A stretch of 64,000 nt of DNA. It comes from Flavobacteriaceae bacterium (GTDB lineage Bacteria > Bacteroidota > Bacteroidia > Flavobacteriales > Flavobacteriaceae). The stretch lies in the NCBI GenBank assembly GCA_014238425.1, contig JABABD010000040.1, positions 1 to 64,000 of the forward strand. The letters run 5' to 3'. How positions within the stretch are numbered: the stretch's first letter is position 1; each line of letters opens with the position of its first letter. Of this stretch, positions 33,452-50,782 are shown in pieces. Made by a program: the position numbers and the translations under genes. The notes under the pieces are model-generated. The model searched no databases and was not told where the DNA came from. It was given only the letters and a program-made list of their open reading frames with translations.

Positions 33452-34057
33452 TTATTTAGAGTATAATTCGACGATGAATTGCTCATTGATGTTTTCTGGA
33501 ATCTGAAGTCTTGCAGGAATAGAAACATATGTTCCCTCCTTTGTATCATCATTCCACGTAATCCATTCATATACATGACTAGCATTAGAAAGTGATCTTT
33601 CGATAGCTTCTAATGACTTTGATTTCTCTCTTACTGCCACTACATCTCCAGCTTTCATATTATAAGATGGGATGTTAACGAGTTCTCCGTTAACTGTAAT
33701 ATGTCTGTGAGAGACTAATTGTCTCGCGCCACTTCTTGAAGGCGCTATTCCCATTCTGAAAACCACGTTATCTAAACGCGATTCACACAATTGAAGTAAT
33801 ACTTCACCTGTAATTCCAGGTGCAGCCGTAGCCTTTTTAAATAAATTTCTAAATTGACGCTCTAGAATACCATATGTATACTTAGCTTTTTGCTTCTCCA
33901 TTAACTGGATAGCGTATTCAGATTTTTTTCCACGTCTTCTGTTGTTTCCGTGTTGACCTGGAGGATAATTTCTTTTCTCAAAAGCTTTATCGTCTCCAAA
34001 AATAGCTTCGCCAAATTTTCGTGCTATTTTAGTTTTAGGACCAGTATATCTTGCCAT
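33452..34057 (-). CDS. rpsD: Ribosomal protein S4
   Basis: uS4 nucleates 30S assembly and in several phyla represses its own operon by binding the mRNA. The N-terminal region lacks the zinc cysteines found in some S4 proteins; the S4 RNA-binding domain is at about 93-155 ([33 protein letters not shown]). At 201 residues it is complete. It is preceded by a 93-base gap that folds well (34071-34126), a likely autoregulatory leader. Confidence 0.97.
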
Positions 34058-34070
34058 TAGTTTGTTTTTT

Positions 34071-34126
34071 GAGAGTAGTTATGAATTAAGGTCTTACGTT
34101 TAATCCTTCGATAACTAGTGTCTCCC
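34071..34126 (-). ncRNA. Structured leader before rpsD (candidate S4-binding RNA)
   Basis: In the minus-strand RNA, GAGA (34124-34121) pairs with UCUC (34074-34071). After a small internal loop, AGUUAU (34116-34111) pairs with AUAACU (34082-34077). Above a second internal loop, AAGG (34108-34105) pairs with CCUU (34091-34088), topped by a 3-bp stem with an AACG loop. The element ends 13 bases before the rpsD ATG inside an otherwise tightly packed operon. Autoregulatory S4 leaders are established in other bacteria, and I recall leader families described for flavobacterial S4, but I cannot confirm that this is one of them. Confidence 0.6.
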
Positions 34127-34150
34127 GTTTGTTATACTTAATTATAATTA

Positions 34151-34534
34151 TTAAACTCTTCTTCTTTTAGGAGGTCTACATCCGTTATGCGGTAATGGCG
34201 TAACATCGATAATTTCTGTTACTTCGATTCCAGAATTATGAATCGCACGAATCGCTGATTCTCTTCCGTTCCCAGGACCTTTAACATATACCTTTACTTT
34301 CTTAAGCCCTGCTTCTTGAGCAATTTTCGCTGCATCTTCCGACGCCAATTGAGCCGCGTAAGGTGTGTTTTTCTTAGAACCTCTAAAACCCATCTTACCA
34401 GCAGATGACCAAGAGATTACGTCTCCTTTTTTATTAGTAAGCGATATGATGATGTTGTTAAAAGAAGCAGTAACATGTGCTTGTCCAACAGACTCAACTA
34501 TAACTTTACGTTTTTTAGTACTTGTCTTTGCCAT
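34151..34534 (-). CDS. rpsK: Ribosomal protein S11
   Basis: uS11 forms part of the 30S platform near the mRNA exit. The 127-residue sequence shows the family signatures [37 protein letters not shown] and the C-terminal [18 protein letters not shown]. It is 8 bases after rpsM; behind it comes the folded gap before rpsD. Confidence 0.98.
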
Positions 34535-34542
34535 ACTATTTA

Positions 34543-34917
34543 TTATTTAGTTACTTTTTTCTTATTAGCAACTGTTTTTCTTCTACCTTTTCTAGTTCTC
34601 GAGTTATTCTTAGTTCTTTGACCTCTTAATGGAAGTCCAGCTCTATGACGAATTCCTCTATAACAGCCAATATCCATTAAACGCTTAATGTTCAACTGAG
34701 TTTCTGAACGCAATTCACCTTCAATTTTGAAGGTAGATACAGCATCACGTATTTTACTGATGTCATCATCTGTCCAATCATCAACTTTTGTACTTTCATC
34801 AACTTTAGCAGTTGCTAAAATGTCTTTTGCTCTACTTCTACCTATTCCGAAGATATAAGTAAGGGAAATAACGCCTCTTTTCTGTTTTGGTATATCTACA
34901 CCTGCAATTCTTGCCAT
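34543..34917 (-). CDS. rpsM: Ribosomal protein S13
   Basis: uS13 sits in the 30S head and contacts the P-site tRNA and the 50S subunit. The start [19 protein letters not shown], the helix-two-turns-helix centre and the tail [18 protein letters not shown] are standard. At 124 residues it is complete. It follows rpmJ by 3 bases and opens the alpha section of the superoperon. Confidence 0.98.
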
Positions 34918-34920
34918 AGC

Positions 34921-35037
34921 TTATCCTTGTCTTTGTTTGAATCTAGGATTCTTTTTGTTAATTACGTAAAGTCTACCTTTTCTTCGCACGATCTTACAAT
35001 CTGCGCTTCTTTTCTTAACTGATGCTCTTACTTTCAT
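34921..35037 (-). CDS. rpmJ: Ribosomal protein L36
   Basis: This 38-residue gene was read by hand: [20 protein letters not shown], then [18 protein letters not shown] and stop. It is bL36, a tiny 50S protein. The zinc ligands are incomplete: only one cysteine (Cys14) remains and the C-terminal His/Cys pair is absent, so it is the zinc-free form. It sits between infA (6 bases) and rpsM (3 bases), its usual place. Confidence 0.95.
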
Positions 35038-35043
35038 CTGTTC

Positions 35044-35259
35044 TTAGTATCTATAAGTTATACGAGCCTTCGTTAAATCGTAAGGACTCATTTCTAATTT
35101 TACCTTATCACCAGGTAATAGTTTGATATAATGCATCCGCATTTTACCAGAAATATGTGCTGTCACAATGTGACCATTTTCTAATTCTACACGAAACATA
35201 GCATTTGATAATGCTTCTATAATCGTTCCGTCTTGTTCTATTGCTGCTTGCTTTGCCAT
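35044..35259 (-). CDS. infA: Translation initiation factor IF-1
   Basis: IF-1 is a single OB-fold protein that binds the 30S A site at initiation. All 71 residues match the family: [39 protein letters not shown] and the end [12 protein letters not shown]. It lies between secY (6 bases) and rpmJ, the common position in this phylum. Confidence 0.97.
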
Positions 35260-35265
35260 ATTATG

Positions 35266-36609
35266 TTATGCTACTGCTTTTCTATTCTTTCCAGTTTTCA
35301 TCAAGCCATCATAATGCTTGTTCAATAAATATGAGTTCACTTGCTGCATTGTATCAATCGCTACACCTACCATGATGAGGAGTGATGTTCCTCCAAAAAA
35401 CAATGCCCAACCTTGTTGAATACCCATTAGCTTTACTATAATTGCTGGAAATACAGCTATCAATGCTAAGAATATAGAACCTGGCAATGTAATTTGAGAC
35501 ATTATCTTATCTAAGTATTCTGAAGTTTCCGAACCTGGACGAATACCAGGAATAAAACCACCACTTCTTTTTAAATCATCAGCCATTTTATTTGTTGGCA
35601 CTGTAATCGCAGTATAGAAATATGTAAATACAATAATCAACAATGCAAACACTACGTTGTACCAAAATCCGAAGAGATCAGAAAATGCAGTTTGCATCCA
35701 GGCCCCAACAGTCGTATCACTTAAAGAATTACCAATTAAACTTGGCACGAACATGATTGCTTGTGCAAAAATAATTGGCATTACGCCAGAAGCGTTCAAT
35801 TTTAATGGAAGAAATTGTCGAGATCCAAAAACATTTTTCTCGTAGCCTCCAGATTGTGTACGTCTTGCATATTGTACGGCAATTTTTCTTACTGCCATAA
35901 CTAACATTACAGACGCTAATATGATAACGAACCAAACAATTAATTCAATTAATATTAACATTGGCCCACCGTTATTATCAGTCACTCTTGATGTAAATTC
36001 TTGAACAAATGATTGCGGTAACGTTGCAATAATACCAACCATAATCAATAATGAAATACCATTACCAATTCCTTTATCAGTAATTTTCTCTCCTAACCAC
36101 ATCGCAAAAATACAACCAGTAACGAGTATAACCACTGATGAGAAATAGAATGTAAAGGTCTGACCTAATAAGAACGCTGACTGAGGAATACCCAAACCAG
36201 GTAAACTAGCTAAATATCCAGGTGCTTGAACTAAACAGATGCCGATAGTTAACCAACGTGTGATTTGAGTGATTTTCTTTTGCCCACTAGCACCTTCTTT
36301 TTGTAGTTTTTGAAGATATGGAATCGCAATTCCCATCAACTGAACAACAATAGATGCTGAAATATAAGGCATAATACCTAAGGCAAACACAGATGCATTA
36401 GCAAATGCTCCGCCAGTAAAAGCGTTAAGTAAGCCTAAAAGACCTCCGTCTGTAGAATCCTGTAAACCACCTAATTGGGCAGCATCTATTCCAGGAAGTA
36501 CTACTTGGGCGCCAAAACGGTACACTAGTAATAGTCCAAGAGTCAAGATGATACGATCACGCAGTTCCTCAATTTTCCAAACGTTTTTTAATGTCTCTAT
36601 AAATTTCAT
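35266..36609 (-). CDS. secY: Protein translocase subunit SecY
   Basis: SecY is the channel of the Sec translocon in the inner membrane. Ten membrane segments can be traced in 447 residues. Family marks are ALGIMPYISASIVVQL, the plug region near the N-terminus, and FKRSGG-like LKRSGGFIPGIRPG before the later helices. It follows rplO by 13 bases in the spc section, its conserved place. Confidence 0.97.
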   Translation of the reverse strand: MKFIETLKNVWKIEELRDRIILTLGLLLVYRFGAQVVLPGIDAAQLGGLQDSTDGGLLGLLNAFTGGAFANASVFALGIMPYISASIVVQLMGIAIPYLQKLQKEGASGQKKITQITRWLTIGICLVQAPGYLASLPGLGIPQSAFLLGQTFTFYFSSVVILVTGCIFAMWLGEKITDKGIGNGISLLIMVGIIATLPQSFVQEFTSRVTDNNGGPMLILIELIVWFVIILASVMLVMAVRKIAVQYARRTQSGGYEKNVFGSRQFLPLKLNASGVMPIIFAQAIMFVPSLIGNSLSDTTVGAWMQTAFSDLFGFWYNVVFALLIIVFTYFYTAITVPTNKMADDLKRSGGFIPGIRPGSETSEYLDKIMSQITLPGSIFLALIAVFPAIIVKLMGIQQGWALFFGGTSLLIMVGVAIDTMQQVNSYLLNKHYDGLMKTGKNRKAVA

Positions 36610-36622
36610 TCTATATTGGTTC

Positions 36623-37075
36623 TTATAACGTTACAGCTTCTCCTCCTGCAGCTTCGATAGCAGCTTTTGCCGATGCTGTAAACTTATGTGCAGTTACTTT
36701 TAATTTAGCCTTCAATTCGCCTCTACCCATAATCTTAACAAGATCATTTTTTCCAGCAAGTCTCAGTGTAACAAAAGCATCAAGATCCGCAGAACCTTTT
36801 ATCTTTTTGTCGTCAACCATTTGCTGAAGCGTATCTAAATTGATGCCTTGATATTCTTTTCTATTGATGTTTGTGAAACCAAATTTAGGCACACGTCTTT
36901 GAAGTGGCATTTGCCCACCTTCAAAACCAATCTTACGAGAATAACCAGATCTAGATTTAGCTCCTTTATGTCCTCTTGTAGCAGTACCACCTTTACCAGA
37001 ACCTTGACCTCTACCTACTCGTTTTCCTTGAGTTTTATTCGAACCTTCTGCAGGTTTTAAATTACTTAAATTCAT
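36623..37075 (-). CDS. rplO: Ribosomal protein L15
   Basis: uL15 is an early 50S assembly protein. The start MNLSNLKPAEGSNKTQGKR and the glycine-rich GRGQGSGKGGTATRGHKG are typical, and the C-terminal globular part ends in VTL. It has 150 residues and lies between rpmD and secY. Confidence 0.97.
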   Translation of the reverse strand: MNLSNLKPAEGSNKTQGKRVGRGQGSGKGGTATRGHKGAKSRSGYSRKIGFEGGQMPLQRRVPKFGFTNINRKEYQGINLDTLQQMVDDKKIKGSADLDAFVTLRLAGKNDLVKIMGRGELKAKLKVTAHKFTASAKAAIEAAGGEAVTL

Positions 37076-37086
37076 TTCAGTTCTTA

Positions 37087-37269
37087 TTATTTTGTTTCTT
37101 CAACAGAAACTAAATGTTTTACTTTATTCACCATACCAAGGATGTTTGGTGTGGCATCATGTTCTACAACTTGACCAATCTTTTTTAAACCTAAAGCTTC
37201 TAATGTTCTTTTTTGGTTCTTAGTGCGATTGATTGCGCTTTTTGTCTTTGTTACTTTGATTTTTGCCAT
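37087..37269 (-). CDS. rpmD: Ribosomal protein L30
   Basis: The 60-residue protein is uL30 of the short bacterial type, with [20 protein letters not shown] at the start and [15 protein letters not shown] at the end. It lies between rpsE and rplO, where it is expected. Confidence 0.95.
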
Positions 37270-37280
37270 CTTATCCTTAA

Positions 37281-37805
37281 TTATCCTTTAAATACTTTCT
37301 CTACAGAAATACCTCTTTCTCTAGCTATAGTTCTTGCATCTCTTAATTGCAGCAATGCATCAAAGGTAGCTTTTACTACATTATGGGGATTAGAAGACCC
37401 TTGAGATTTAGATAATACATCATGTACTCCAACCGCCTCTAAAACAGTTCTAACAGCTCCACCAGCAATAACTCCTGTACCAGCTGCAGCAGGAATGATA
37501 TTTACTCTAGCTCCGCCATATTTCCCTTTTTGTTCATGAGGTAATGTTCCTTTTATAATAGGAATACGTACCAAATTTTTCTTAGCATCTTCAATGGCTT
37601 TTGCTATTGCACTAGCCACATCTTTAGATTTTCCTAAACCATGACCAACAACGCCTGCCTCATCTCCAACAACAACAATAGCTGAAAATCCGAAAGCTCG
37701 TCCACCTTTTGTAACTTTAGTTACTCTTTGAACACCAACTAAACGATCTTTAAGATCTAATCCACCTGGTTTTACTAATTCTGCACTTTTATATTTTTGA
37801 TACAT
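37281..37805 (-). CDS. rpsE: Ribosomal protein S5
   Basis: uS5 guards decoding accuracy in the 30S body. Visible are the N-terminal double-stranded-RNA-like domain ([20 protein letters not shown]) and the C-terminal [20 protein letters not shown] segment. At 174 residues it is complete. It overlaps nothing and follows rplR by 6 bases. Confidence 0.97.
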
Positions 37806-37811
37806 ATTTCC

Positions 37812-38165
37812 TTAGAATTTTAATCCGGCTTCTCTTGCGCCTTCAGCTAATGATTTCACTCTACCATGATATAAATAACCACCTCTATCAAAAGAAATAG
37901 TTTCAACACCAGCTTTAAGTGCTTTTTCTCCAACCGCTTTTCCTACCTGAGCAGCAACTTCGATTTTAGATCCTTTAGCCTTAATACCTTTATCTCTTGA
38001 AGATGCTGCAGCTAAAGTTTTACCTGTAACATCATCAACGATTTGAGCATATATCTCTTTATTACTTCTAAAAACAGCCAATCTTGGTCTCGTTTCTGTA
38101 CCAGAAACAACCTTACGGATTCTGTTTTTTATTCTTATTCTTCTTTCGTTTTTAGTCAATGCCAT
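37812..38165 (-). CDS. rplR: Ribosomal protein L18
   Basis: uL18 binds 5S rRNA. The basic N-terminus ([19 protein letters not shown]), [20 protein letters not shown] and the final [20 protein letters not shown] are family marks. It has 117 residues and lies between rplF and rpsE. Confidence 0.97.
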
Positions 38166-38176
38166 AACGTCTATTA

Positions 38177-38719
38177 TTAAGCAGATTTACCTGCTTTTCT
38201 TCTTAATACTTCTCCAACGAACTTAACACCTTTTCCTTTGTACGGCTCAGGTCTACGGAAACCGCGGATCTTAGCTGCTACTTGTCCGACTAATTGCTTG
38301 TCGTGAGATGTTAGCTTTATAATTGGATTCTTTCCTTTTTCAGAAATCGTTTCCACTTTAACTTCAGGTGCGATATTCAACACAATATTGTGTGAAAAAC
38401 CTAAAGCTAAATCCAATTTTTGTCCTTGGTTGTTAGCTCTATAACCTACACCAACCAATTCTAGTTCTTTAGTCCATCCTTTAGATACACCTGCAACCAT
38501 ATTGTTCATAAGCGATCTATAAAGACCATGCTTAGCTTTTTGATCTTTGCTATCAGAAGAACGAGTAACCATTATGTTTCCGTCCTCAACTTTGATGCCA
38601 ACTGAATCAAAATTTTGAGTTAATTCTCCCATTTTTCCTTTAACCGTTACTACACCGTCTTTAATATCAACGGTAACGCCTTCTGGAATTGCTACTGGGT
38701 TATTTCCTATTCTTGACAT
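38177..38719 (-). CDS. rplF: Ribosomal protein L6
   Basis: uL6 lies near the factor-binding centre of the 50S subunit. The start [15 protein letters not shown] and the final [21 protein letters not shown] are the usual signatures, with two repeated alpha/beta domains between. It has 180 residues and follows rpsH by 21 bases. Confidence 0.97.
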
Positions 38720-38740
38720 GATTTTCTTGTCTTTAGATAA

Positions 38741-39139
38741 TTAGTAAACGTAACATAATACTTCTCCACCAACATTCTCTCTTTGGGCTTGCTTACCTGT
38801 CATTACACCATGAGATGTTGAAACGATGGCAATACCAAGACCATTAAGAATTCGTGGATGGTCTCCTGAACCTGAATATTTACGTAAACCTGGTTTACTT
38901 ATTCTCTGTAATTTCTTGATTACAGGCTCCTTTGTTTCTTTATTATACTTTAGTGCAATCTTGATTGTACCTTGTACTGAAGAATCATCGAACTTGTAAC
39001 TTAAGATATATCCTTGATCGAATAATATCTTAGTGATTTCTTTTTTTAGATTAGATGCAGGAATCTCTACCACTCTGTGGTTAGCTCTAACAGCATTTCT
39101 AATTCTTGTTAAGTAATCCGCTATTGGATCTGTATACAT
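38741..39139 (-). CDS. rpsH: Ribosomal protein S8
   Basis: uS8 is a primary 16S rRNA binder, and in E. coli it represses the spc operon. The start DPIADYLTRIRNAVRANH and the end GIAIVSTSHGVMTGKQAQ are diagnostic. It has 132 residues. A 60-base gap separates it from rpsN, longer than most in this operon, but no stable fold is obvious there. Confidence 0.97.
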   Translation of the reverse strand: MYTDPIADYLTRIRNAVRANHRVVEIPASNLKKEITKILFDQGYILSYKFDDSSVQGTIKIALKYNKETKEPVIKKLQRISKPGLRKYSGSGDHPRILNGLGIAIVSTSHGVMTGKQAQRENVGGEVLCYVY

Positions 39140-39199
39140 ATATATTAATTTGCGGTTTCAGTTTTCAACATCTGTCGAACTTAAAGCCAATTTATAATC

Positions 39200-39469
39200 T
39201 TACCAACTTGCTTTTCTAACACCAGGTATTAACCCTTCATTCGCCATTTTCCTAAACGTCACACGTGAGATTCCAAACGTACGCATATACCCTTTAGGTC
39301 TTCCTGTTAACTTACATCTGTTATGCATTCTTACAGGAGATGCGTTCTTTGGCAATTTTTGTAATGCTTCGTAATCTCCAGCTTCTTTTAAAGCCTTTCT
39401 CTTTTCAGCATATTTTGCAACTGTCGCAGCTCTTTTTCTCTCACGAGCTTTCATTGATTCTTTAGCCAT
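39200..39469 (-). CDS. rpsN: Ribosomal protein S14 (zinc-free form)
   Basis: At 89 residues this is the long uS14 without the CxxC zinc motifs. The end [20 protein letters not shown] and [15 protein letters not shown] is typical. It follows rplE by 6 bases. Confidence 0.97.
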
Positions 39470-39475
39470 AACTAA

Positions 39476-40024
39476 TTATTTTTTAAAAGGTATTCCTAGT
39501 TCTGTTAACAATGATTTTGCTTCTTTATCTGTATCGGCAGAAGTCACAAATGTAATATCCATTCCAGATATTTTGTTCACTTTATCGATATCGATTTCAG
39601 GGAAAATGATTTGTTCAGTAATACCCAAATTGTAATTACCCCTTCCATCAAATCCAGTAGCCTTTATTCCGCCAAAGTCTCTTACTCGAGGTAATGCCGA
39701 TGTTACAAGCCTATCTAAAAACTCATACATACGTTCTCCTCTTAAAGTCACTTTAACACCAATTGGCATACCTTTTCTTAATTTGAAAGATGCAACATCC
39801 TTCTTAGATATAGTAGCCACGGCTCTTTGACCTGTGATATTCGTTATCTCTTCTATTGAATGATCGATAAGTTTTTTGTCAGAAACAGCTCCTCCAACAC
39901 CTCGAGAAAGTACTATTTTCTCAAGCTTTGGCACTTGCATGACATTATCATATCCAAATTCTTCCTTAAGAGCAGAAACGACTCTGTCTTTATACTCTTG
40001 TTTTAATCTTGGTGTATAGCTCAT
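39476..40024 (-). CDS. rplE: Ribosomal protein L5
   Basis: uL5 binds 5S rRNA and forms a bridge to the 30S head. Segments [40 protein letters not shown] and [20 protein letters not shown] are diagnostic. It has 182 residues and follows rplX by 2 bases. Confidence 0.97.
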
Positions 40025-40026
40025 AA

Positions 40027-40341
40027 TTAAACTACTTGATCAGATTTTTTTGCAATTCTCTCTTTCTTGTCACCATCAATTCTATAGCCTACTCTTGTTG
40101 TCTCACCACTTTTTGGATCGATTAAGGACAGGTTAGAAATATGCATTGGCGCTTCTTTCTCTACGATACCACCTTGAGGATTTTGTGCACTTGGCTTGGT
40201 GTGTTTTTTCACCATGTTAATGCCCTCTACTATGGCCTTGTTCTTATCAGCGAATACTTGAAGAATTGCTCCTTCGCTACCTTTATGGTCGCCAGCGATA
40301 ACTCTTACTGTATCTCCTGATTTTATTTTAAGTTTTCCCAT
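40027..40341 (-). CDS. rplX: Ribosomal protein L24
   Basis: uL24 starts 50S assembly. The KOW motif is near the start ([19 protein letters not shown]), followed by [20 protein letters not shown]. It has 104 residues and lies between rplN and rplE. Confidence 0.97.
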
Positions 40342-40359
40342 TTTATTAAAATGTTTGTA

Positions 40360-40728
40360 TTAAAGCACCTCTGGTGCTAATGATACAATTTTCATGAATT
40401 GTTTGTCACGAAGCTCTCTAGCAACAGGTCCGAAAACACGAGTTCCTCTCATTTCGCCAGTTGGATTTAGAAGCACACAGGCATTATCATCAAATCTGAT
40501 ATATGATCCATCTGGTCTTCTTACTTCTTTTACAGTACGTACAACAACAGCTGTTGAAACAGCGCCTTTCTTGATACTTCCGTTAGGCGTAGCATCTTTA
40601 ATAGATACGACGATTTTATCTCCAACTGAAGCATACCGTCTTTTTGTACCACCTAAAACTCTGATAGTCAAAACTTCTTTCGCTCCTGTATTATCGGCTA
40701 CTTTTAATCTTGATTCTTGTTGTAACAT
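40360..40728 (-). CDS. rplN: Ribosomal protein L14
   Basis: uL14 is a 50S interface protein. The start [19 protein letters not shown] and the end [20 protein letters not shown] are diagnostic. It has 122 residues and lies 2 bases after rpsQ. Confidence 0.98.
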
Positions 40729-40730
40729 AA

Positions 40731-40988
40731 TTACTTAGCTCTTTCAATGATTTCTACTAGTCTCCAACATTTAGATTTACTCATAGGACGTGTTTCCATA
40801 ATCCTAACGGTATCTCCTTCGTTACAGTCGTTTGTTTCGTCGTGAGCAACGTACTTCTTAGTTTTCAAAACGAACTTTCCGTACATTGGGTGTTTTACTT
40901 TCTTGACTTCAGCAACCACAATTGATTTCTGCATCTTGTTACTTGTAACAACACCTATACGCTCTTTTCTTAAATTTCTTTTTTCCAT
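40731..40988 (-). CDS. rpsQ: Ribosomal protein S17
   Basis: uS17 is an OB-fold primary binder of 16S r[23 protein letters not shown] and [20 protein letters not shown] match the family. It has 85 residues and lies between rpmC and rplN. Confidence 0.97.
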
Positions 40989-41000
40989 CTTCTAATACAG

Positions 41001-41192
41001 TTACTGTGTATCACGATTATTTAATTCTGTTGCCACTCTAGCTACACTTCTTCTAATAGAACGTAACTGAATAGGATTTTCTAACGGAGAAATAGCATGC
41101 GCCATTTTTAAGTCAGTATAACTCTTCTTTAATTCTCCAAGCTTCTCCTGTAACTCAGCCGTAGCCAATTCTTTAATCTCTGATTGTTTCAT
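41001..41192 (-). CDS. rpmC: Ribosomal protein L29
   Basis: uL29 is a small helical protein at the tunnel exit. MKQSEIKELATAELQEKLGE and the end IRRSVARVATELNNRD are typical. It has 63 residues and lies between rplP and rpsQ. Confidence 0.95.
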   Translation of the reverse strand: MKQSEIKELATAELQEKLGELKKSYTDLKMAHAISPLENPIQLRSIRRSVARVATELNNRDTQ

Positions 41193-41204
41193 AATAATAC
41201 TTGA

Positions 41205-41624
41205 TTAAGCTTCGTAATCGCGAGCGACAATGAATTTAGTTTTTACAGGTAATTTCTGAGCTGCTAAACGCAATGCTTCTTTAGCAACCTCCATAGGTAC
41301 ACCAGAAACTTCAAAAATAATGCGTCCTGGTTTTACAACAGCTGCCCAATATTCTACAGCACCTTTACCTTTACCCATACGTACTTCAAGAGGTTTCTTT
41401 GTAATAGGTTTGTCTGGAAATATCTTGATCCATAACTGACCTTCTCTTTTCATATAACGAGTAGCGGCAATACGTGCAGCTTCTATTTGACGTGATGTCA
41501 AGAAATTAGAATCCAAGGATTTAATTCCGAACATTCCATTAGAAAGTAAATGTCCTCTTCCGGAATTACCTTTCATACGGCCTTTTTGCTGCTTACGGAA
41601 CTTTGTTCTTTTAGGTTGTAACAT
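41205..41624 (-). CDS. rplP: Ribosomal protein L16
   Basis: uL16 is needed for the A site of the 50S subunit. The start [20 protein letters not shown] and the motif [20 protein letters not shown] are diagnostic. It has 139 residues and follows rpsC by 19 bases. Confidence 0.98.
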
Positions 41625-41643
41625 TTTTCTTTACTTTAAAAAA

Positions 41644-42357
41644 TTACTTTCTACGACGATTTTTGTTTCCTCTATCATTTCCACCTTTACCTTTTTGCTT
41701 GGATAACCCAACAAGAGGAGAAAGTTCTCTCTTACCATAAACTTCGCCTTTCATGATCCACACTTTAACACCTAATCTACCGTAAGTAGTATGTGCTTCA
41801 ACTAGTGCATAATCGATATCAGCTCTAAAAGTTGATAAAGGAATACGTCCGTCTTTATAATGTTCTTGACGAGCCATTTCAGCGCCATTTAAACGACCGC
41901 TAATCTGAACCTTGATTCCTTCAGCATTCATACGCATTGTAGCAGCAATAGCCATTTTGATTGCTCTTCTATATGAGATTCTACTCTCAATTTGACGTGC
42001 AATACTAGATCCTACTAAAAATGCATCCAGTTCAGGTCTCTTGATCTCAAAGATGTTAATCTGAACTTCTTTATCTGTAATCTTCTTAAGCTCTTCTTTT
42101 AACTTATCTACCTCTTGTCCACCTTTTCCAATAATGATACCAGGTCTAGCAGTAGTGATAGTAACGGTTATAAGTTTAAGAGTTCTTTCGATGATTACTC
42201 TAGACACACTAGCTTTAGATAAACGAGCGTGAATATACTTTCTAATCTTATCGTCTTCAGCAAGCTTGTCGCCGTAGTCGTTACCACCGTACCAGTTAGA
42301 TTCCCAACCTCTGATGATTCCTAAACGATTTCCGATAGGGTTTGTCTTCTGTCCCAT
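41644..42357 (-). CDS. rpsC: Ribosomal protein S3
   Basis: uS3 lines the mRNA entry tunnel. It has the KH domain with its loop ([20 protein letters not shown]), and the C-terminal domain [17 protein letters not shown] basic tail ([14 protein letters not shown]) closes it. It has 237 residues and follows rplV by 3 bases. Confidence 0.98.
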
Positions 42358-42360
42358 TTA

Positions 42361-42771
42361 TTAATTGCTTTGTGTGTTATTTTTAGCTCCTAATACCACA
42401 GTTACATGGTTGGAACGTTTTCTAATTCTGTGAGCACGACCTTGTGGTGCTGGACGCAATCTCTTAAGCATTGATCCGCTATCCACTTTGATCTCTTTTA
42501 CGAATAACTCAGCTTCTTCAACATTAGCATCTTCATTTTTTGCTTGCCAGTTAGCAACCGCAGATAATACTAATTTCTCTAAACGTCTTGACGCTTCTTT
42601 TTGACTGAATCTTAAAAGGTTAAGTGCCTTATCAACATTTTCTCCTCTTACTAGGTCAGCAACTAAACGCATTTTTCTTGGAGACGTTGGGCAGTTATTA
42701 AGCTTTGCAAATGCAATTTGCTTCTTCCCTTCCTTAATAGCGTCAGCCATTTCTTTTTTACGACTTCCCAT
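42361..42771 (-). CDS. rplV: Ribosomal protein L22
   Basis: uL22 spans the exit tunnel. [20 protein letters not shown], the central helix and the extended loop [20 protein letters not shown] are diagnostic. It has 136 residues with a short extra N-terminus. It follows rpsS by 5 bases. Confidence 0.97.
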
Positions 42772-42776
42772 TGCTC

Positions 42777-43055
42777 TTATTTTTTGCCTTTATTTTTTGC
42801 TCCTGCATGACCTCTAAATGATCTTGTTGGAGAAAATTCACCTAATTTATGTCCTACCATGTTTTCAGTAACATATACTGGAACAAATTGGCGTCCGTTG
42901 TGAACTGCAATTGTTTGACCAACAAAATCTGGAGTGATCATACTTGCTCTTGACCAAGTCTTGATAACTGTTTTTTTGTTAGCGTCTACATTAGCAGCAA
43001 CTTTTCTTTCTAATTTATAATGAACGTAAGGTCCTTTTTTTAATGATCTTGCCAT
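42777..43055 (-). CDS. rpsS: Ribosomal protein S19
   Basis: uS19 forms a complex with S13 in the 30S head. [19 protein letters not shown] and [19 protein letters not shown] are diagnostic. It has 92 residues and follows rplB by 6 bases. Confidence 0.98.
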
Positions 43056-43061
43056 GATATA

Positions 43062-43889
43062 TTATTTGTTTCTACGTTCTACAATATATTTGTTACTTGC
43101 TTTTGTTTTAGAACGGGTTCTATAACCTTTAGCAGGTATACCGTTTCTAGAACGTGGATGTCCACCAGAAGATTTCCCTTCACCACCACCCATTGGGTGA
43201 TCAACAGGATTCATTACTACTGGTCTTGTTCTTGGACGTCTTCCTAACCATCTTGATCTACCTGCTTTACCAGACACTAACAATTGATGATCAGAGTTAG
43301 ATACAACTCCAATAGTTGCCATACAATCTGCAAGAATCAATCTTGTTTCACCAGAAGGTAATTTAACTGTTGCAAACTTACCGTCTTTCGCCATTAACTG
43401 AGCAAAAGAACCAGCACTTCTCGCCATTACCGCTCCTTGACCAGGACGTAATTCTAAACAAGAAACGATTGTTCCTAATGGAACTTCACTTAAAGGCATC
43501 GCATTTCCAATTTCCGGAGCAACATTGCTATTACCAGAAACTATATTTTGACCTACTTTAAGACCATTTTGAGCAATAACATATCTTTTTTCGCCATCTT
43601 GATAATTCAATAATGCGATGAAAGCTGTTCTGTTCGGATCGTATTGGATAGACGCAATTTCAGCAGGAATGCCTTGTTTGTCGCGTTTGAAATCGATAAT
43701 ACGATATCTTTTTTTATGACCACCACCTTTATAGCGCATAGTCATTTTACCTCGATTGTTTCTACCACCAGTACGTTTTTTCGGAGCTAATAAGCTTTTT
43801 TCCGGCTTGTCAGTAGTAATGGCATCGAACCCATTTACTACTCTAAATCGCTGTCCTGGTGTGATCGGTTTTAATTTTCTTACTGACAT
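43062..43889 (-). CDS. rplB: Ribosomal protein L2
   Basis: uL2 is required for subunit joining and lies near the peptidyl transferase centre. [20 protein letters not shown] at about 42-61 and [20 protein letters not shown] near 226-245 (with the conserved histidine) are diagnostic. It has 275 residues and follows rplW by 10 bases. Confidence 0.98.
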
Positions 43890-43899
43890 TGTTGTCTAA

Positions 43900-44190
43900 T
43901 TACATGTTACTGTATAAATCAATCACTTCACCTTCCGCCAGTTGTACAATTGCTTTTTTAACAGCATTTGTTTTACCATGTTGAACACCAGTTTTAGTAA
44001 ACTTAGTGCTTCTATCTGGACGGACATTTATAGTACGAACTTTATCAACAGAAACGCCATAAGCTGCTTCAACAGCCTTTTTGATTTCTACCTTATTCGC
44101 CTTTGTATTCACCTGAAATGTATAGCAGTTATTCAACTCGCTATCAGCTGTCGCCTTTTCTGTGATTATCGGTTTAATTAAGATACTCAT
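43900..44190 (-). CDS. rplW: Ribosomal protein L23
   Basis: uL23 forms the docking site for nascent-chain factors at the tunnel exit. MSILIKPIITEKATADSELN and the helix VEIKKAVEAAYGVSVDKVRT match the family. It has 96 residues and lies between rplD and rplB. Confidence 0.97.
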   Translation of the reverse strand: MSILIKPIITEKATADSELNNCYTFQVNTKANKVEIKKAVEAAYGVSVDKVRTINVRPDRSTKFTKTGVQHGKTNAVKKAIVQLAEGEVIDLYSNM

Positions 44191-44197
44191 CTCGTTT

Positions 44198-44827
44198 CTA
44201 TTTACTTAAGTTCGATTCAATTCCTTCTAATGCGCTCTCTAAAAGAATTACTTGATTTGCATTTAAAATCTTGTAAGTACTTAATTCTGAATTCATTATG
44301 ACTTCAGAACTTTTCAAATTGCGTGACGACAAATATACGTTATTATTTGACCCACCCAACACGAAGAGAGACTTTTTGTTTTCAAGACCTAAAGCCTTTA
44401 AAACTGCTTTAAAATCCTTTGTCTTTGGAGCATCAAAATTGAAGTCCTCCAACACAACAATTGACTTTTCATTTGCCTTGATACTCAAAGCAGATTTACG
44501 AGCCAAACGCTTTAGGTTTTTGTTAAGCTTGAAACCGTAATTTCTTGGTCTTGGACCGAAAATTCGTCCACCACCTCTAAATAAGCCAGACTTGATACTA
44601 CCAGCACGAGCCGTTCCAGTTCCTTTTTGCTTCTTAATCTTACGCGTACTACCAACAATCTCAGCTCTTTCCTTAGCCTTGTGCGTTCCTTGACGTTGAT
44701 TAGCAAGATATTGCTTAACATCAAGATATACTGCATGATTATTAGGCTCGATTGCGAACACATCCTTAGAAAGCTCTGCTTTCCTTCCAGTGTCTTTTCC
44801 TTTTATGTCTAATACTGCTACCTTCAT
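44198..44827 (-). CDS. rplD: Ribosomal protein L4
   Basis: uL4 reaches into the exit tunnel; in E. coli it also represses the S10 operon. I chose the ATG at 44825-44827 ([16 protein letters not shown], 209 aa), which overlaps the rplC stop by one base (TAATG); an upstream in-frame start would add 15 unrelated residues. The loop KKQKGTGTARAGSIKSGLFR is diagnostic. Because the attenuator-like hairpin lies before rplC in the same operon, L4 is one candidate controller. Confidence 0.97.
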   Translation of the reverse strand: MKVAVLDIKGKDTGRKAELSKDVFAIEPNNHAVYLDVKQYLANQRQGTHKAKERAEIVGSTRKIKKQKGTGTARAGSIKSGLFRGGGRIFGPRPRNYGFKLNKNLKRLARKSALSIKANEKSIVVLEDFNFDAPKTKDFKAVLKALGLENKKSLFVLGGSNNNVYLSSRNLKSSEVIMNSELSTYKILNANQVILLESALEGIESNLSK

Positions 44828-45444
44828 TACTTCTGAATAGTTACATAAGTGTTCTTGTGACCAGGAATACATCCTTTAACAACAAGTAGGTTCTTTTCAG
44901 CAACCACTTTCAAGACTCTTAGATTTTGAACTTTTACTTTTTCGTTACCCATTTGACCTGCCATTTTCATTCCTTTAAAAACTCTAGCAGGATAAGAAGC
45001 AGCTCCAATAGAACCTGGCGCTCTTAAACGGTTATGCTGACCATGAGTAGCTTGTCCTACACCAGCAAATCCGTGACGCTTGACAACTCCTTGGAATCCT
45101 TTACCTTTTGATGTGCCAGCCACATCAACGAATTCGCCTTCATTAAAATGCTCTACTGTAATTGTATCGCCTAATTTGTACTCCTCATCATAACCTTGAA
45201 ATTCAGCAACTTGACGTTTAACAGTAGTACCAGCTTTCTTGGCATGACCCAATTCTGCTTTTGTGGCACTTTTCTCTGTCTTGTCATCGAAACCTAACTG
45301 AAGAGCTTCATACCCATCAATTTCATTAGTTCTGACTTGGGTAACAACGCATGGCCCAGCTTGTATGACAGTACAAGGGATATTTTTCCCGTTCTCATCA
45401 AAGATGCTGGTCATTCCGACTTTTTTTCCTATTAACCCAGACAT
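44827..45444 (-). CDS. rplC: Ribosomal protein L3
   Basis: uL3 is an early 50S assembly protein near the peptidyl transferase centre. [20 protein letters not shown] at the start and [20 protein letters not shown] in the centre are diagnostic. It has 205 residues. Unlike its neighbours it is separated from the gene before it (rpsJ) by 143 bases with two strong hairpins. Confidence 0.98.
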
Positions 45445-45478
45445 AATTATTTATTAATTTATTATTACTTATTTATTT

Positions 45479-45513
45479 AAAAAAACTCAGGGCCGAAATA
45501 CGTTCAGCCCTGA
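45479..45513 (-). terminator. Attenuator-like intrinsic terminator between rpsJ and rplC
   Basis: On the minus strand UCAGGGC (45513-45507) pairs with GCCCUGA (45493-45487). The loop adds a 3-bp GAA/UUC extension, and G plus seven U follow (45485-45479). This is a textbook intrinsic terminator, 34 bases before the rplC start and inside a superoperon whose downstream genes need high expression. Partial read-through or regulated attenuation is therefore inferred. No new promoter is visible between the hairpin and rplC. Confidence 0.75.
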
Positions 45514-45553
45514 ATGTATTTTTACCGTTTTTCCTTCGCACGCAGCTTAGGAC

Positions 45554-45582
45554 ATGTATTCAAGGAAAATTCCTTGATGCAT
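45554..45582 (-). other. Stable hairpin just behind rpsJ
   Basis: TCAAGGAA (45560-45567) and TTCCTTGA (45570-45577) are perfect inverted repeats, and five flanking pairs (45554-45558 with 45578-45582, one G-U) extend the stem past a single bulged base. There is no U-run, so it is not a terminator. It could be an mRNA-processing or stability element, or part of the regulatory fold with the terminator-like hairpin at 45479-45513. Confidence 0.6.
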
Positions 45583-45587
45583 TTTAC

Positions 45588-45893
45588 TTATACTTTAATT
45601 TCTACTTCAACGCCACTTGGCAATTCAAGTTTCATCAACGCGTCAATCGTTTTAGAAGAAGAACTATAGATATCCAATAATCTCTTATAAGAACTTAATT
45701 GGAATTGTTCTCTAGACTTCTTGTTTACGTGCGGTGAACGCAATACTGTGAAAATTTTCTTATGTGTTGGTAATGGAATTGGTCCAGTAACAACAGCACC
45801 TGTACTCTTTACAGTTTTAACAATCTTATCAGCAGACTTATCTACTAAATTGTGATCGTAAGATTTTAATTTTATTCTGATTTTTTGACTCAT
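45588..45893 (-). CDS. rpsJ: Ribosomal protein S10
   Basis: uS10 lies in the 30S head and doubles as NusE in antitermination. [20 protein letters not shown] and [20 protein letters not shown] are diagnostic. It has 101 residues. It follows fusA by 11 bases with no tuf gene between them, and is followed by the hairpin-rich gap before rplC. Confidence 0.98.
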
Positions 45894-45904
45894 TTTATTA
45901 AGAT

Positions 45905-48031
45905 TTACGATTCAACACCTTTAGCAGCTTTAATGACCTCTTCTGATATATTCGAAGGCGTTTCAGCATAATGTGAAAATTCCATAGTTGACGTTGCACG
46001 TCCAGATGATAATGTTCTTAAGGTTGTTACATAACCAAACATTTCTGAAAGTGGCACAGTTGCTTTTACAGTTTTTGCTCCAGCTCTATCACCCATATCA
46101 CTTACTTGTCCTCTACGACGATTCAAATCTCCTACGATGTCACCCATATTTTCTTCAGGTGTAATAACCTCAAGCTTCATAATAGGTTCCATGATAACTG
46201 CTTTAGCCGCTTTTGCTGAATTCTTGAATCCAAGCTTTGCTGCTAATTCGAATGACAATTGATCCGAATCCACATCGTGATAAGAACCATCTGTCAATGT
46301 TACTTTCATAGCATCCACTTCATATCCTGCTAATGGCCCATTGACCATTGCCATTTTGAAACCTTTCTCTACAGAAGGAACAAATTCTTTTGGCACATTA
46401 CCACCTTTTATCTTATTGATAAATTCAAGACCAGTTTTACCTTCTTCAGCTGGCTCTAGCGTAAAGACAATATCTGCAAATTTACCACGACCACCAGACT
46501 GTTTTTTATAAGTTTCTCTGTGTTGAGCAAGACGCGTAATAGCTTCTTTGTACTCTACCTGTGGTTGTCCTTGGTTTACTTCAACCTTGAACTCACGTCT
46601 TAAACGATCTACGATAACATCCAAGTGAAGTTCACCCATTCCTGATATAATAGTCTGGCCTGAAGCCTCGTCTGAACGTACTGTAAATGTTGGATCTTCT
46701 TCTGCTAATTTAGCTAAGCCCATACCTAATTTATCAACATCCGCCTTAGTTTTAGGCTCAACCGCAATACCAATTACTGGATCTGGGAAGTCCATAGATT
46801 CTAAAACAATAGGATGTTTTTCTGCAGAAAGTGTATCTCCAGTCTTGATAGATTTAAATCCAACAGCAGCTCCAATATCTCCAGCTTCTATATAGTCAAT
46901 TGCATTTTGTTTGTTAGCATGCATTTGATAGATACGTGAGATACGTTCTTTTTTACCTGAACGATTATTTAATACATAAGAACCTGCATCTAAACGACCA
47001 GAATATGCTCTAAAGAATGCTAAACGACCTACAAAAGGATCTGTAGCAATTTTAAATGCTAGAGCAGCAAATGGCTCATTTACACTTGGCTTACGAATTT
47101 CTTCTTGTTCTGTTTCTGGGTTCACTCCAACAATACCTTCCTTATCCATTGGAGAAGGTAAGTAACGACATACAGCATCTAATAAAAACTGAACACCTTT
47201 GTTTTTAAACGCAGAACCACATATCATAGGAATGATAGCCATATCCATTACAGCAGCTCTCAATGCAGCATGCACTTCGTCTTCGGTAATAGAATCTTCA
47301 TCTTCCATGAACTTCTCAAGAAGGTTCTCATCGTATCCTGCAACTTCTTCAATTAAAAGTGCACGATACTTATGAGCTTCTTCTTTCATATCTTCTGGAA
47401 TGTCAATAACATCAAAAGTTGCCCCCTGAGTCTCATCATGCCAAACGATAGCTCTGTTTTTTACTAAATCAATGATACCTTTAAAATCTTCTTCATCACC
47501 AATATTTAAAACAATAGGCACAGCATTTGAACCTAACATTTCCTTAACTTGGTCGCACACCATCATAAAATCAGATCCTTGACGGTCCATTTTATTTACG
47601 AAACCAATACGAGGCACATTATAATTGTCAGCTAGTCTCCAATTAGTTTCAGATTGTGGTTCAACACCATCAACTGCACTAAATAAAAACACCAATCCAT
47701 CAAGTACACGTAGTGAACGGTTTACTTCAACCGTAAAATCAACGTGACCTGGTGTATCTATAATATTAAAGTGATATCCTTTAGTTTCTGGCGTAGATTC
47801 TCCATTTTCTAATGGAAACTCCCATGTACAGGTTGTTGCAGCAGAAGTAATTGTAATACCTCTTTCTTGCTCTTGCTCCATCCAGTCCATGGTTGCAGCA
47901 CCATCATGTACTTCACCAATCTTGTGAGAAACACCTGTATAATAAAGAATACGCTCAGTCTTAGTAGTTTTACCAGCATCAATATGCGCAGCAATACCTA
48001 TATTTCTTGTGAATTTTAAATCTCTTGCCAG
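45905..48031 (-). CDS. fusA: Elongation factor G, with an apparent CTG start codon
   Basis: EF-G is the GTPase that drives ribosomal translocation. Domains I-V are complete in 708 residues: P-loop AHIDAGKT (15-22), GITITSAAT of switch I, the G3 motif DTPGHVDF, and [10 protein letters not shown] for G4. Between the rpsG stop and codon 48 (ATG in [13 protein letters not shown]) there is no ATG, GTG or TTG in this frame, yet the family's N-terminus [13 protein letters not shown] is fully encoded. The codon where Met belongs is CTG at 48029-48031, preceded by GTA and an in-frame TAA. So translation starts at CTG, or the base is a sequencing error for ATG. It lies 6 bases after rpsG. Confidence 0.95.
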
Positions 48032-48037
48032 TACTTA

Positions 48038-48514
48038 CTAAAATCTAAAATGTGAGAACGCTTTGTTTGCTTCTGCCATTTTGTGAGTATCCACTTTTTT
48101 CTTGACAGCAGCACCTTCTTCTTTAGCAGCAGCTAATACTTCTGATGCTAAACGTTGCGCCATAGATTTTTCATTTCTTTTTCTTGAGTAGCCAATAAGC
48201 CACTTCATCGCCGTAGATATTTTTCTGTCCGGACGAATCTGCATTGGAATTTGAAAAGTCGCTCCGCCAACTCTACGACTACGTACTTCTACGTGAGGCA
48301 TAACATTAGACAATGCATCTTTCCATAATTCTAAAGCTGTTTTTTCTTCGTCAGTTTTCTTTTCTTCTACAATATCAATCGCATCATAGAATACTTTAAA
48401 AGCTACTGCTTTTTTCCCATCCCACATCATCATATTAACGAAACGAGTTACTAACTGGTCGTTAAAACGTGGATCTGGTAAAATCGGTCTTTTTTTCGCC
48501 GCTCTTTTTCTCAT
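48038..48514 (-). CDS. rpsG: Ribosomal protein S7
   Basis: uS7 organises the 30S head near the E site. [20 protein letters not shown] and [20 protein letters not shown] are diagnostic. It has 158 residues and follows rpsL by 22 bases; its TAG stop is 6 bases before the fusA CTG, which suggests coupled translation. Confidence 0.98.
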
Positions 48515-48536
48515 GTCTTCTTCTTAAAGTTTTTAA

Positions 48537-48911
48537 TTACTTCTTAGGGCGTTTTGCACCGTATTTAGATCTACGTTGTGTTCTACCTGAAACACCAGCG
48601 GTGTCTAAAGCTCCACGAACGATATGATACCTCACACCTGGCAAATCTTTTACCCTTCCACCTCTAACCAATACTATCGAATGCTCTTGTAAGTTGTGAC
48701 CTTCACCGCCGATGTATGCATTAACCTCGTTGCCGTTTGTTAAACGAACCCTTGCCACCTTTCTCATTGCTGAGTTTGGTTTTTTAGGAGTTGTTGTATA
48801 AACACGAGTACATACACCACGTCTTTGTGGACACGAATTTAAAGCAGCCGATTTACTCTTCTTGGTTATTTTGGCTCTACCTTTTCGTACTAATTGTGAA
48901 ATTGTTGGCAT
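48537..48911 (-). CDS. rpsL: Ribosomal protein S12
   Basis: uS12 controls decoding accuracy and is the classic streptomycin target. [40 protein letters not shown] and [20 protein letters not shown] are present. Lysines at the streptomycin positions (TPKKPN and GRVKDLPG) are the sensitive wild type. It has 124 residues and is the first gene of the superoperon, with a clear promoter at 48956-48986. Confidence 0.98.
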
Positions 48912-48955
48912 ATTATTTATATACTGTTTTATATGATCCCTTGTTAAAAGGGCTG

Positions 48956-48986
48956 CAAAGGTAGAAATTAATATGAATTATTCAAA
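48956..48986 (-). promoter_or_regulatory. Promoter of the rpsL-to-rplQ superoperon
   Basis: The minus strand reads TTTG (48986-48983), 19 bases, then TACCTTTG (48963-48956). Both elements and the spacing match the Bacteroidota housekeeping consensus (TTTG, 19-21 bases, TAnnTTTG). Transcription should start near 48950, giving a leader of about 40 bases. Confidence 0.85.
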
Positions 48987-49021
48987 CCTTCAAGAATTAA
49001 TTTTCAAACATATTTAAAAAA

Positions 49022-49029
49022 TAGTTTTG
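49022..49029 (+). promoter_or_regulatory. -7 promoter element of the Omp85-like gene
   Basis: TAGTTTTG matches TAnnTTTG, 61 bases before the TTG start of the gene at 49091. It is divergent from the rpsL promoter in the same 179-base gap. No clear -33 TTG is seen. Confidence 0.45.
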
Positions 49030-49090
49030 CCGCTATATTATAAGTGTATAAATTCCGTTAGTTTTAACACACAAATCAACGCTACTTAGA

Positions 49091-50782
49091 TTGAGAAAAT
49101 CGAATATTTTATTCCTTATTATATATGTATTTGTTTTTACAAGTTCTTTTTCTCAAAATGTCTTATTGAAAATCGAAGGAGAAACCAGTAAAGAAACTGA
49201 CATTATTGATTCGCTTTCTTATAATAAGAAATTTAAAGATATTGAAAGTTTCAATCTAGAAAAGAATGCGTTTGAAAATAAGATTTATAGATTGGGGTAT
49301 ATTGACAGTAAAGAAGTCACAAAGACAAAGACAAACGATTCGACTTACCTTATTACTTACTCTCTTAACAAATTATACAAGGCAATTCATATTTACTATG
49401 ACAAACAACTTGTGCCAAGAGAGATTCTTGAAACAGTTTCAGATGAATTATACGGCGACTATTTTTCTATTCCTTTCTCACTTGTTGAAGCAAAGCTTAA
49501 TGATTTAAATCAACACCTAGCAAATCAAGGCTCTCCTTTTAAAACACTTCAATTACAAAATATCAAAAAAAAAGAATCTGATATTTTAAGCGCCACACTT
49601 TTAATTAGTGACGAGTCTAAAAGAATCATAAACAAAATTGTTGTTAATGGTTATAAAAAATTTCCAAAGTCTTTTTTGAAGCGCTATCTTAAAATTAAGA
49701 AAAATGAGGAATTCAACCTTACTGAGATAAAGAGCAAAACTAGCGCCCTAAACGAATTATCATTTGCGTCACAAATAAAACCTCCTGAAGTGCTGTTTAC
49801 TGAAGATTCAACTACCTTATATATGTATCTAGAAAAAAGATCAAGTAATACATTTGATGGGTTCTTAGGTTTTGGTACAAATGAAAACACAAATAAAATT
49901 GAGTTTGATGGATATTTGAATCTTAATTTAATAAACAACTTAAATTATGGAGAATCGTTTAGACTACTTTATAAAAGCGATGAGAATGAACAAAAAACTT
50001 TTGAGGGGCAAATTGAGTTGCCATATATTTTTGGAACTCCAATAGGTACGGAGCTACAACTCAATATTTTTAAGAAGGATTCATCTTTTACTACAGTAAA
50101 TCAATTTGCAAAGGTGTTTTATCAACTGAATCCAAAAAGCAAATTACTTATTGGCATTAATTCTACACAGTCTAATAATTTATTAGATGAAACCGCAACA
50201 TTATTAGTAGATGATTACAATACTACATTCTATAATATAGGTTACAGCTATCTTTCTAAAGAAAGTTACAATTCACTTTTTCCAGTCAATTTTAATTTCT
50301 ATTTAGAGGCAGGTACTGGAAGTAGGGTTTTTGAAAATAACAACCTAAAACAAACTAACGTTCACTTTGACACGTTTAAGATATTCAATCTAAATAATAA
50401 AAACAGCATATATATAAGGACAACTGGTTCTCTCCTTTTTTCAGATAATTATTTTTTTAACGAGCTATATCGTTTCGGAGGTATAAACTCTATAAGAGGT
50501 TTTGAAGAAAACAGTCTATTTGCTTCAACTTATGCATTAATCAATACCGAGTATCGTTATAAACTATCTAATAGCATTTATATAAACTCCATAATTGATG
50601 GTGCTTATTATGAAAATGACATCTCAGCCTCAAAAGAAAAATTGTTTGGTTTTGGATTTGGGTTTGGTCTACTAACAAATTCTGGCTTATTGAAATTTAA
50701 TTATGCCAACGGCAAAAGTGAAAACCAGAAATTCAAATTTTCCGATTCGAAAATTCATATCAGCTTGACAGCTAGGTTTTAA
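49091..50782 (+). CDS. Omp85-family outer-membrane protein (BamA/TamA-like)
   Basis: The product is 563 residues from a TTG start, needed to include the signal peptide (RKSNILFLIIYVFVFTSSFSQ). Residues of about 25-235 look like POTRA-type domains (IINKIVVNGYKKFPKSFLKR is a POTRA strand-helix start). The rest is a beta barrel with the Omp85 loop motif in RFGGINSIRGFEE (about 467-471) and a C-terminal Phe (SLTARF). The family inserts or exports outer-membrane proteins and lipids; with two or three POTRA units this fits TamA or a patatin-less relative better than BamA itself. The substrate is unknown. Confidence 0.85.
   Translation: MRKSNILFLIIYVFVFTSSFSQNVLLKIEGETSKETDIIDSLSYNKKFKDIESFNLEKNAFENKIYRLGYIDSKEVTKTKTNDSTYLITYSLNKLYKAIHIYYDKQLVPREILETVSDELYGDYFSIPFSLVEAKLNDLNQHLANQGSPFKTLQLQNIKKKESDILSATLLISDESKRIINKIVVNGYKKFPKSFLKRYLKIKKNEEFNLTEIKSKTSALNELSFASQIKPPEVLFTEDSTTLYMYLEKRSSNTFDGFLGFGTNENTNKIEFDGYLNLNLINNLNYGESFRLLYKSDENEQKTFEGQIELPYIFGTPIGTELQLNIFKKDSSFTTVNQFAKVFYQLNPKSKLLIGINSTQSNNLLDETATLLVDDYNTTFYNIGYSYLSKESYNSLFPVNFNFYLEAGTGSRVFENNNLKQTNVHFDTFKIFNLNNKNSIYIRTTGSLLFSDNYFFNELYRFGGINSIRGFEENSLFASTYALINTEYRYKLSNSIYINSIIDGAYYENDISASKEKLFGFGFGFGLLTNSGLLKFNYANGKSENQKFKFSDSKIHISLTARF

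Follow-up and report, generated by a model that had tools for sequence, protein, structure and literature searches.

Introduction

Transcription of the Escherichia coli S10 operon is stopped at an attenuator by an excess of L4, and in Bacillus subtilis the binding of a ribosomal protein (r-protein) to the L10 (rplJL) and L20 leaders chooses between an antiterminator and a terminator hairpin (PMC10931766). A leader located directly upstream of rplC-rplD-rplW-rplB, L4-Archaeoglobi, has been predicted with L4 as the likely ligand (Eckert and Weinberg 2020, PMC7247131), and some r-protein leaders show no rRNA mimicry (PMC7247131). A leader survey that includes Flavobacteria lists S4, S15, S16 and L19 leaders, and none at the position described here (PMC7247131); Bacteroidetes are not mentioned in PMC2965389, and the rpsJ motif of PMC11109978 is reported in Peptostreptococcaceae only. 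Here, a conserved RNA element is described between rpsJ and rplC in a Flavobacteriaceae bacterium and its relatives, for which no published description was found in the open-access literature.

Results

The window (the whole 64,000-nt stretch of DNA analysed) encodes the ribosomal superoperon on its minus strand (Table 1), where transcription from the rpsL promoter passes through rpsL-rpsG-fusA-rpsJ and then P1, AT and T, the three hairpins of the element. A full TTTG-N17..21-TAnnTTTG promoter occurs once on the minus strand between 33.5 and 49.3 kb, before rpsL, and no TAnnTTTG -7 element lies within 45400-45950, leaving the rpsJ-rplC gap without a promoter. As no other consensus promoter feeds rplC, this gene and the next 20 genes, as far as secY, need read-through. 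The original prediction had placed an intrinsic terminator after rpsJ inside the superoperon with no promoter behind it, and both parts are confirmed; its location of the control point after rpsJ, instead of before it, is supported by the position of the element between rpsJ and rplC. Two further observations concern the annotation of this region. The stretch 34077-34116 on the minus strand matches the Rfam S4-Flavobacteria leader (RF03141) at 46 bits, which gives this superoperon a further control point, and the ATG listed for rplD at 44872 (minus strand) overlaps the end of rplC, making a start near 44824 likelier.

Table 1. Coordinates of the element and of the surrounding genes and signals in the window.
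Feature	Position	Strand	Description
Promoter	48986-48956	-	TTTG-N19-TACCTTTG, upstream of rpsL; sole consensus flavobacterial promoter of the operon
rpsJ (S10/NusE)	45893-45588	-	Gene upstream of the element; query for collecting the loci of relatives
rpsJ-rplC gap	45445-45587	-	143 nt
Variable hairpin	45554..45582	-	Folds after the rpsJ stop codon; hairpin frequent here, sequence not conserved
P1 domain	45525..45558	-	ACAUGUC, hairpin 45552-45532 and GGAAAAACGG (tail 45531-45525); alignments A2 and A3
AT hairpin	45521-45496	-	AAAUAC/GUAUUU outer stem, UUCA/UGAA inner stem, GGGC loop
Intrinsic terminator T	45515-45479	-	Stem 45515-45485, loop CGUAU, U tract 45485-45479
rplC (L3)	45444-44827	-	First gene behind the switch
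rplD (L4)	44198..44824	-	Candidate ligand gene; start inferred from translation

The gap folds with an energy of -36.9 kcal/mol, compared with -21.3 +/- 3.5 kcal/mol in dinucleotide shuffles (z -4.5; 0/200), and holds a conserved RNA of about 77 nt consisting of ACAUGUC, P1 and GGAAAAACGG, followed by the hairpins AT and T. In alignments A2 and A3, AUGUC is invariant in all 60 aligned sequences and GGAAA(A)ACGG is nearly invariant. The lower stem of P1, UCC/GGA, varies to UCU/AGA, its upper part can be anything between a GC-capped internal loop and a perfect helix, and the loop and upper stem vary freely. A covariance model of P1 (R2) finds a single copy in the window, at 49 bits. P1 with AAAACGG is the sole conserved part that is dispensable for termination, with the 5' arm of AT following 3 nt downstream, and the P1 domain is presumed to be the ligand-binding site. 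The possibility that the invariant AUG opens a leader peptide was considered and rejected, with 56 of 150 sequences stopping after two codons and the rest giving open reading frames of every length, as in noncoding sequence.

The terminator, AUUCAGGGCUGAA-CGUAU-UUCGGCCCUGAGU followed by U7, lies 34 nt upstream of the rplC start, and its stem of 13 pairs is the longest terminator-like stem on both strands of 34000-49100. AT takes up the 5' arm of T, making the two hairpins mutually exclusive. In the RNA of the window their energies are -5.3 kcal/mol for AT and -19.7 kcal/mol for T, a large difference that leaves AT a role only through kinetics or with assistance. AT can fold while the 3' arm of T is still untranscribed, and in step-by-step folding of the window's RNA it is complete at 62 nt and replaced by T by 68 nt.

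Compensatory change is found in all three hairpins. In alignment A2, 16 of the 18 pairs of P1 and T have changed on both sides (covariation 0.321, shuffled 0.162, 0/500), with double changes in 6 of 8 pairs of the P1 stem and in all 10 counted pairs of the T stem, and RNAalifold recovers both hairpins unaided. The value for AT, which was counted on the same alignment despite a shifting register, is 0.244 compared with 0.159 after shuffling (0/500), with double changes at columns 46-75, 47-74, 48-73 and 62-68. Because the shuffle controls ignore descent, compensatory events were also counted by parsimony on an rpsJ/rplC codon tree, giving 22 for P1, 46 for T and 29 for AT; the relatives share ancestry and the alignment counts are not independent, a kinship that the tree count addresses.

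Column 62 pairs with column 68 in AT and with column 90 in T, and the three are A-U-U in 37 sequences and G-C-C in 6. This joint change of one position and both its partners, seen in the aligned sequences, is the signature left when selection maintains two alternative folds. By eye, the outer arms of AT read AAAUAC/GUAUUU, AAACAAA/UUUGUUU, AAUAUA/UAUAUU and AAGAAAA/UUUUCUU in different sequences. When the AT 5' arm was swapped between species, the native arm was better in 92% of 125 sequences (mean -6.3 kcal/mol native, -3.1 kcal/mol swapped), averages that are approximate, as terminators were located in 125 of 150 sequences and the wrong hairpin was taken in a few.

The original prediction had also named a hairpin beside the terminator, and the conservation and covariation that it put forward as a test hold for T. 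The long stem that it proposed as the second partner fares differently: its sequence is unrelated between species, and a stable hairpin is lacking at this place in about 20 of the 150 sequences. The second hairpin that is conserved is instead P1, which had been overlooked together with its invariant flanks and with AT, the hairpin competing with the terminator. The interval between the rpsJ stop and ACAUGUC does contain a better-than-shuffled hairpin in about 80% of the relatives with at least 15 nt there; these hairpins keep their position, have unrelated sequences and in some cases resemble repetitive palindromes.

The element is present in 150 of 180 distinct rpsJ-rplC gaps extracted from Flavobacteriaceae and their neighbours, including named genomes; many of the carriers are marine relatives of Flavobacterium. 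The 30 gaps lacking it, often only 11-60 nt long, belong mostly to Flavobacterium itself, Nonlabens, streamlined marine genomes and more distant Flavobacteriales. Two of these loci (L096 and L192, one of them Nonlabens) have different, plain gap hairpins, GTTCCGC...GCGGAAC and GTTCCGTC...GGCGGAAC. On an L3 plus L4 protein tree the presence of the element needs four changes, a distribution compatible with one gain inside Flavobacteriaceae followed by a few losses. A covariance model of the element (R1) gave 17 strong matches in 395 Bacteroidota genomes, all of them in Flavobacteriaceae and between rpsJ and rplC, and matches weaker than 1e-9 lay away from rplC where inspected; across the order, 24 of 296 genomes matched, all in Flavobacteriaceae. 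No copies before other genes were found at strong scores in the phylum and order searches, and the P1 pattern, searched in ten genomes, occurs at one place in seven, at none in one and at one extra, chance-like place in two. In the sampled Bacteroidota the element is thus limited to part of Flavobacteriaceae and always stands before rplC.

A TAnnTTTG promoter element stands between rpsJ and P1 in 13 of the 150 gaps with the element, compared with an expectation of 4.4; the 13 include gaps from Polaribacter (L091, L097, L102), Tenacibaculum (L111), Maribacter (L077) and Aquimarina (L054, L056). In several of them, the Polaribacter and Tenacibaculum gaps among these, a hairpin carrying a T run is located ahead of the promoter. 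As the element remains at rplC where a promoter separates it from rpsJ, it belongs to the rplC unit and not to the 3' end of rpsJ. In the same three Polaribacter loci and the Tenacibaculum locus, rplC is also immediately preceded by another hairpin of a similar kind, AGACGCGCTGGATA...TATCGTCT.

Several possible pointers to the ligand were followed. Three L4 residues differ with the presence of the element, but they follow descent and were discarded, and no L3 residues that track its presence were found. The 23S stretch CAUGUCCGARAGGGAAA looks similar to the P1 domain and was rejected as rRNA mimicry, scoring within shuffles. Model R2 found nothing convincing in the rRNA operons of two relatives (best E 1.2), and pairwise alignments to the same operons were no better than shuffles.

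Discussion

The element combines a covarying structured RNA directly upstream of r-protein genes, as expected of an r-protein leader, with an intrinsic terminator and U tract before a gene and a conserved competing hairpin sharing one of its strands, as expected of an attenuator; the resemblance to an rRNA site that is often, though not always, seen in r-protein leaders was not found. On this comparative evidence, it is very probably a regulated attenuator. The best explanation, with a probability of roughly 0.6, is a new r-protein leader that acts by transcription attenuation inside the operon, before rplC.

In the absence of ligand, AT would form first and delay T long enough for read-through. 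An excess of an r-protein encoded downstream would lead to its binding P1 and AAAACGG, masking the 5' arm of AT and allowing T to form, which would lower expression of rplC and of 20 or more genes behind it, as far as secY, with S12, S7, EF-G and S10 still being made. The opposite sign, with a protein stabilising AT, could also apply.

The ligand is probably a ribosomal protein. L4 is the leading candidate, put forward tentatively by analogy, since the E. coli S10 operon is under its control and it has been proposed as the likely ligand of the predicted archaeal rplC leader (PMC7247131). L3, whose gene is the first behind the switch, comes next and is a less likely choice, with the other downstream proteins sharing what remains. 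It is rather unlikely that the switch reads a signal never seen in this operon, either L3, which is not known as an autoregulator, or the supply of S10/NusE, with read-through into the 20-plus r-protein genes licensed by the protein made just before.

Other functions for the element can be weighed against r-protein attenuation. The S10/NusE gene lies directly upstream, and the invariant single-stranded flanks suggest a protein reading sequence, as would be the case if P1 and AAAACGG recruited a Nus complex or a NusG-type factor that carries the polymerase past T, with termination when the factor is scarce. Such antitermination is improbable. Signals of the boxA type would be expected in rRNA operons, yet the P1 signature was not found in those of two relatives, leaders included, nor beyond chance elsewhere in ten genomes. 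A general antiterminator would also have no need of a covarying AT hairpin, and in gaps with a promoter between rpsJ and the element, the element is still kept at rplC. An unregulated partial terminator, holding a constant ratio between rpsL-rpsG-fusA-rpsJ and the remaining genes and using AT only to tune its strength, ranks next and is likewise improbable: it agrees with the strength and conservation of T and with the requirement for EF-G in excess over ribosomal proteins, but leaves the ACAUGUC/GGAAAAACGG signature and P1 unexplained, and it would only waste transcripts where rplC has a separate promoter, as in gaps in which the element is nevertheless present.

P1 with its flanks measures just 34 nt, a size known for small riboswitches, and has a conserved A-rich 3' tail, which would suit the binding of a metabolite or nucleotide by a small riboswitch or growth-rate sensor, ribosome synthesis being known to follow growth rate. 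The freely varying P1 loop and upper stem leave little room for a ligand pocket, however, and autoregulation fits better with an element tied to one gene in one clade, making such a sensor very unlikely. Least probable of all is an mRNA 3'-end or processing site, in which the hairpins would serve only to form the 3' end of the rpsJ mRNA and shield it, with no switch involved. Hairpins are indeed common immediately behind the rpsJ stop codon, but this variable structure lies outside the conserved element, which moves with rplC and not with rpsJ, and the mutual exclusion of AT and T would have no role.

Under the preferred reading, r-protein attenuation, the element probably sets the output of a ribosomal operon of 20-plus genes. 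Few genes of any cell are expressed as strongly as those of S10-spc-alpha, and little has been described of their control in Bacteroidota. A compact, conserved switch through which S12-S7-EF-G-S10 and the rest of the operon are uncoupled would supply the control point that has been missing for this clade, placing the control of the S10 operon differently from E. coli through what was seemingly a gain inside one family.

By its inferred function, the element is likely a new RNA of the ribosomal-leader kind. Rfam 15 gave nothing at the gathering threshold in the rpsJ-rplC gap, the best hit being to a snoRNA model at E 0.65, far below threshold, and known r-protein leaders are not matched there. 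The 'new arrangement' of the original prediction stands in so far as the RNA matches no known family, but r-protein attenuation and leaders inside operons were already known.

The E. coli S10 leader shares with the element the operon and the order of a hairpin followed by an intrinsic attenuator, the hairpin being bound by an r-protein in E. coli. Unlike the element, it is long and lies in the 5' UTR before rpsJ, with additional control of translation and NusA-dependent pausing, and it is limited to part of the gammaproteobacteria; the flavobacterial RNA lies after rpsJ, spans about 77 nt and has a covarying competing hairpin. The position of the flavobacterial RNA was tested and sets it outside the E. 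coli-type S10 leader. The L4-Archaeoglobi leader is archaeal, and the comparison with it consisted of the Rfam search, which gave no match. S4-Flavobacteria (RF03141) occurs in the same superoperon and lineage and is also a leader inside an operon; however, it controls rpsD-rpoA-rplQ and is modelled as a single hairpin of 33 positions that lacks a terminator switch. The L10 and L20 attenuators of B. subtilis involve other genes, ligands and structures, with no kink-turn shown here and no Rfam match. In its logic, the feedback proposed here would resemble these attenuators and the control of the E. coli S10 operon by L4.
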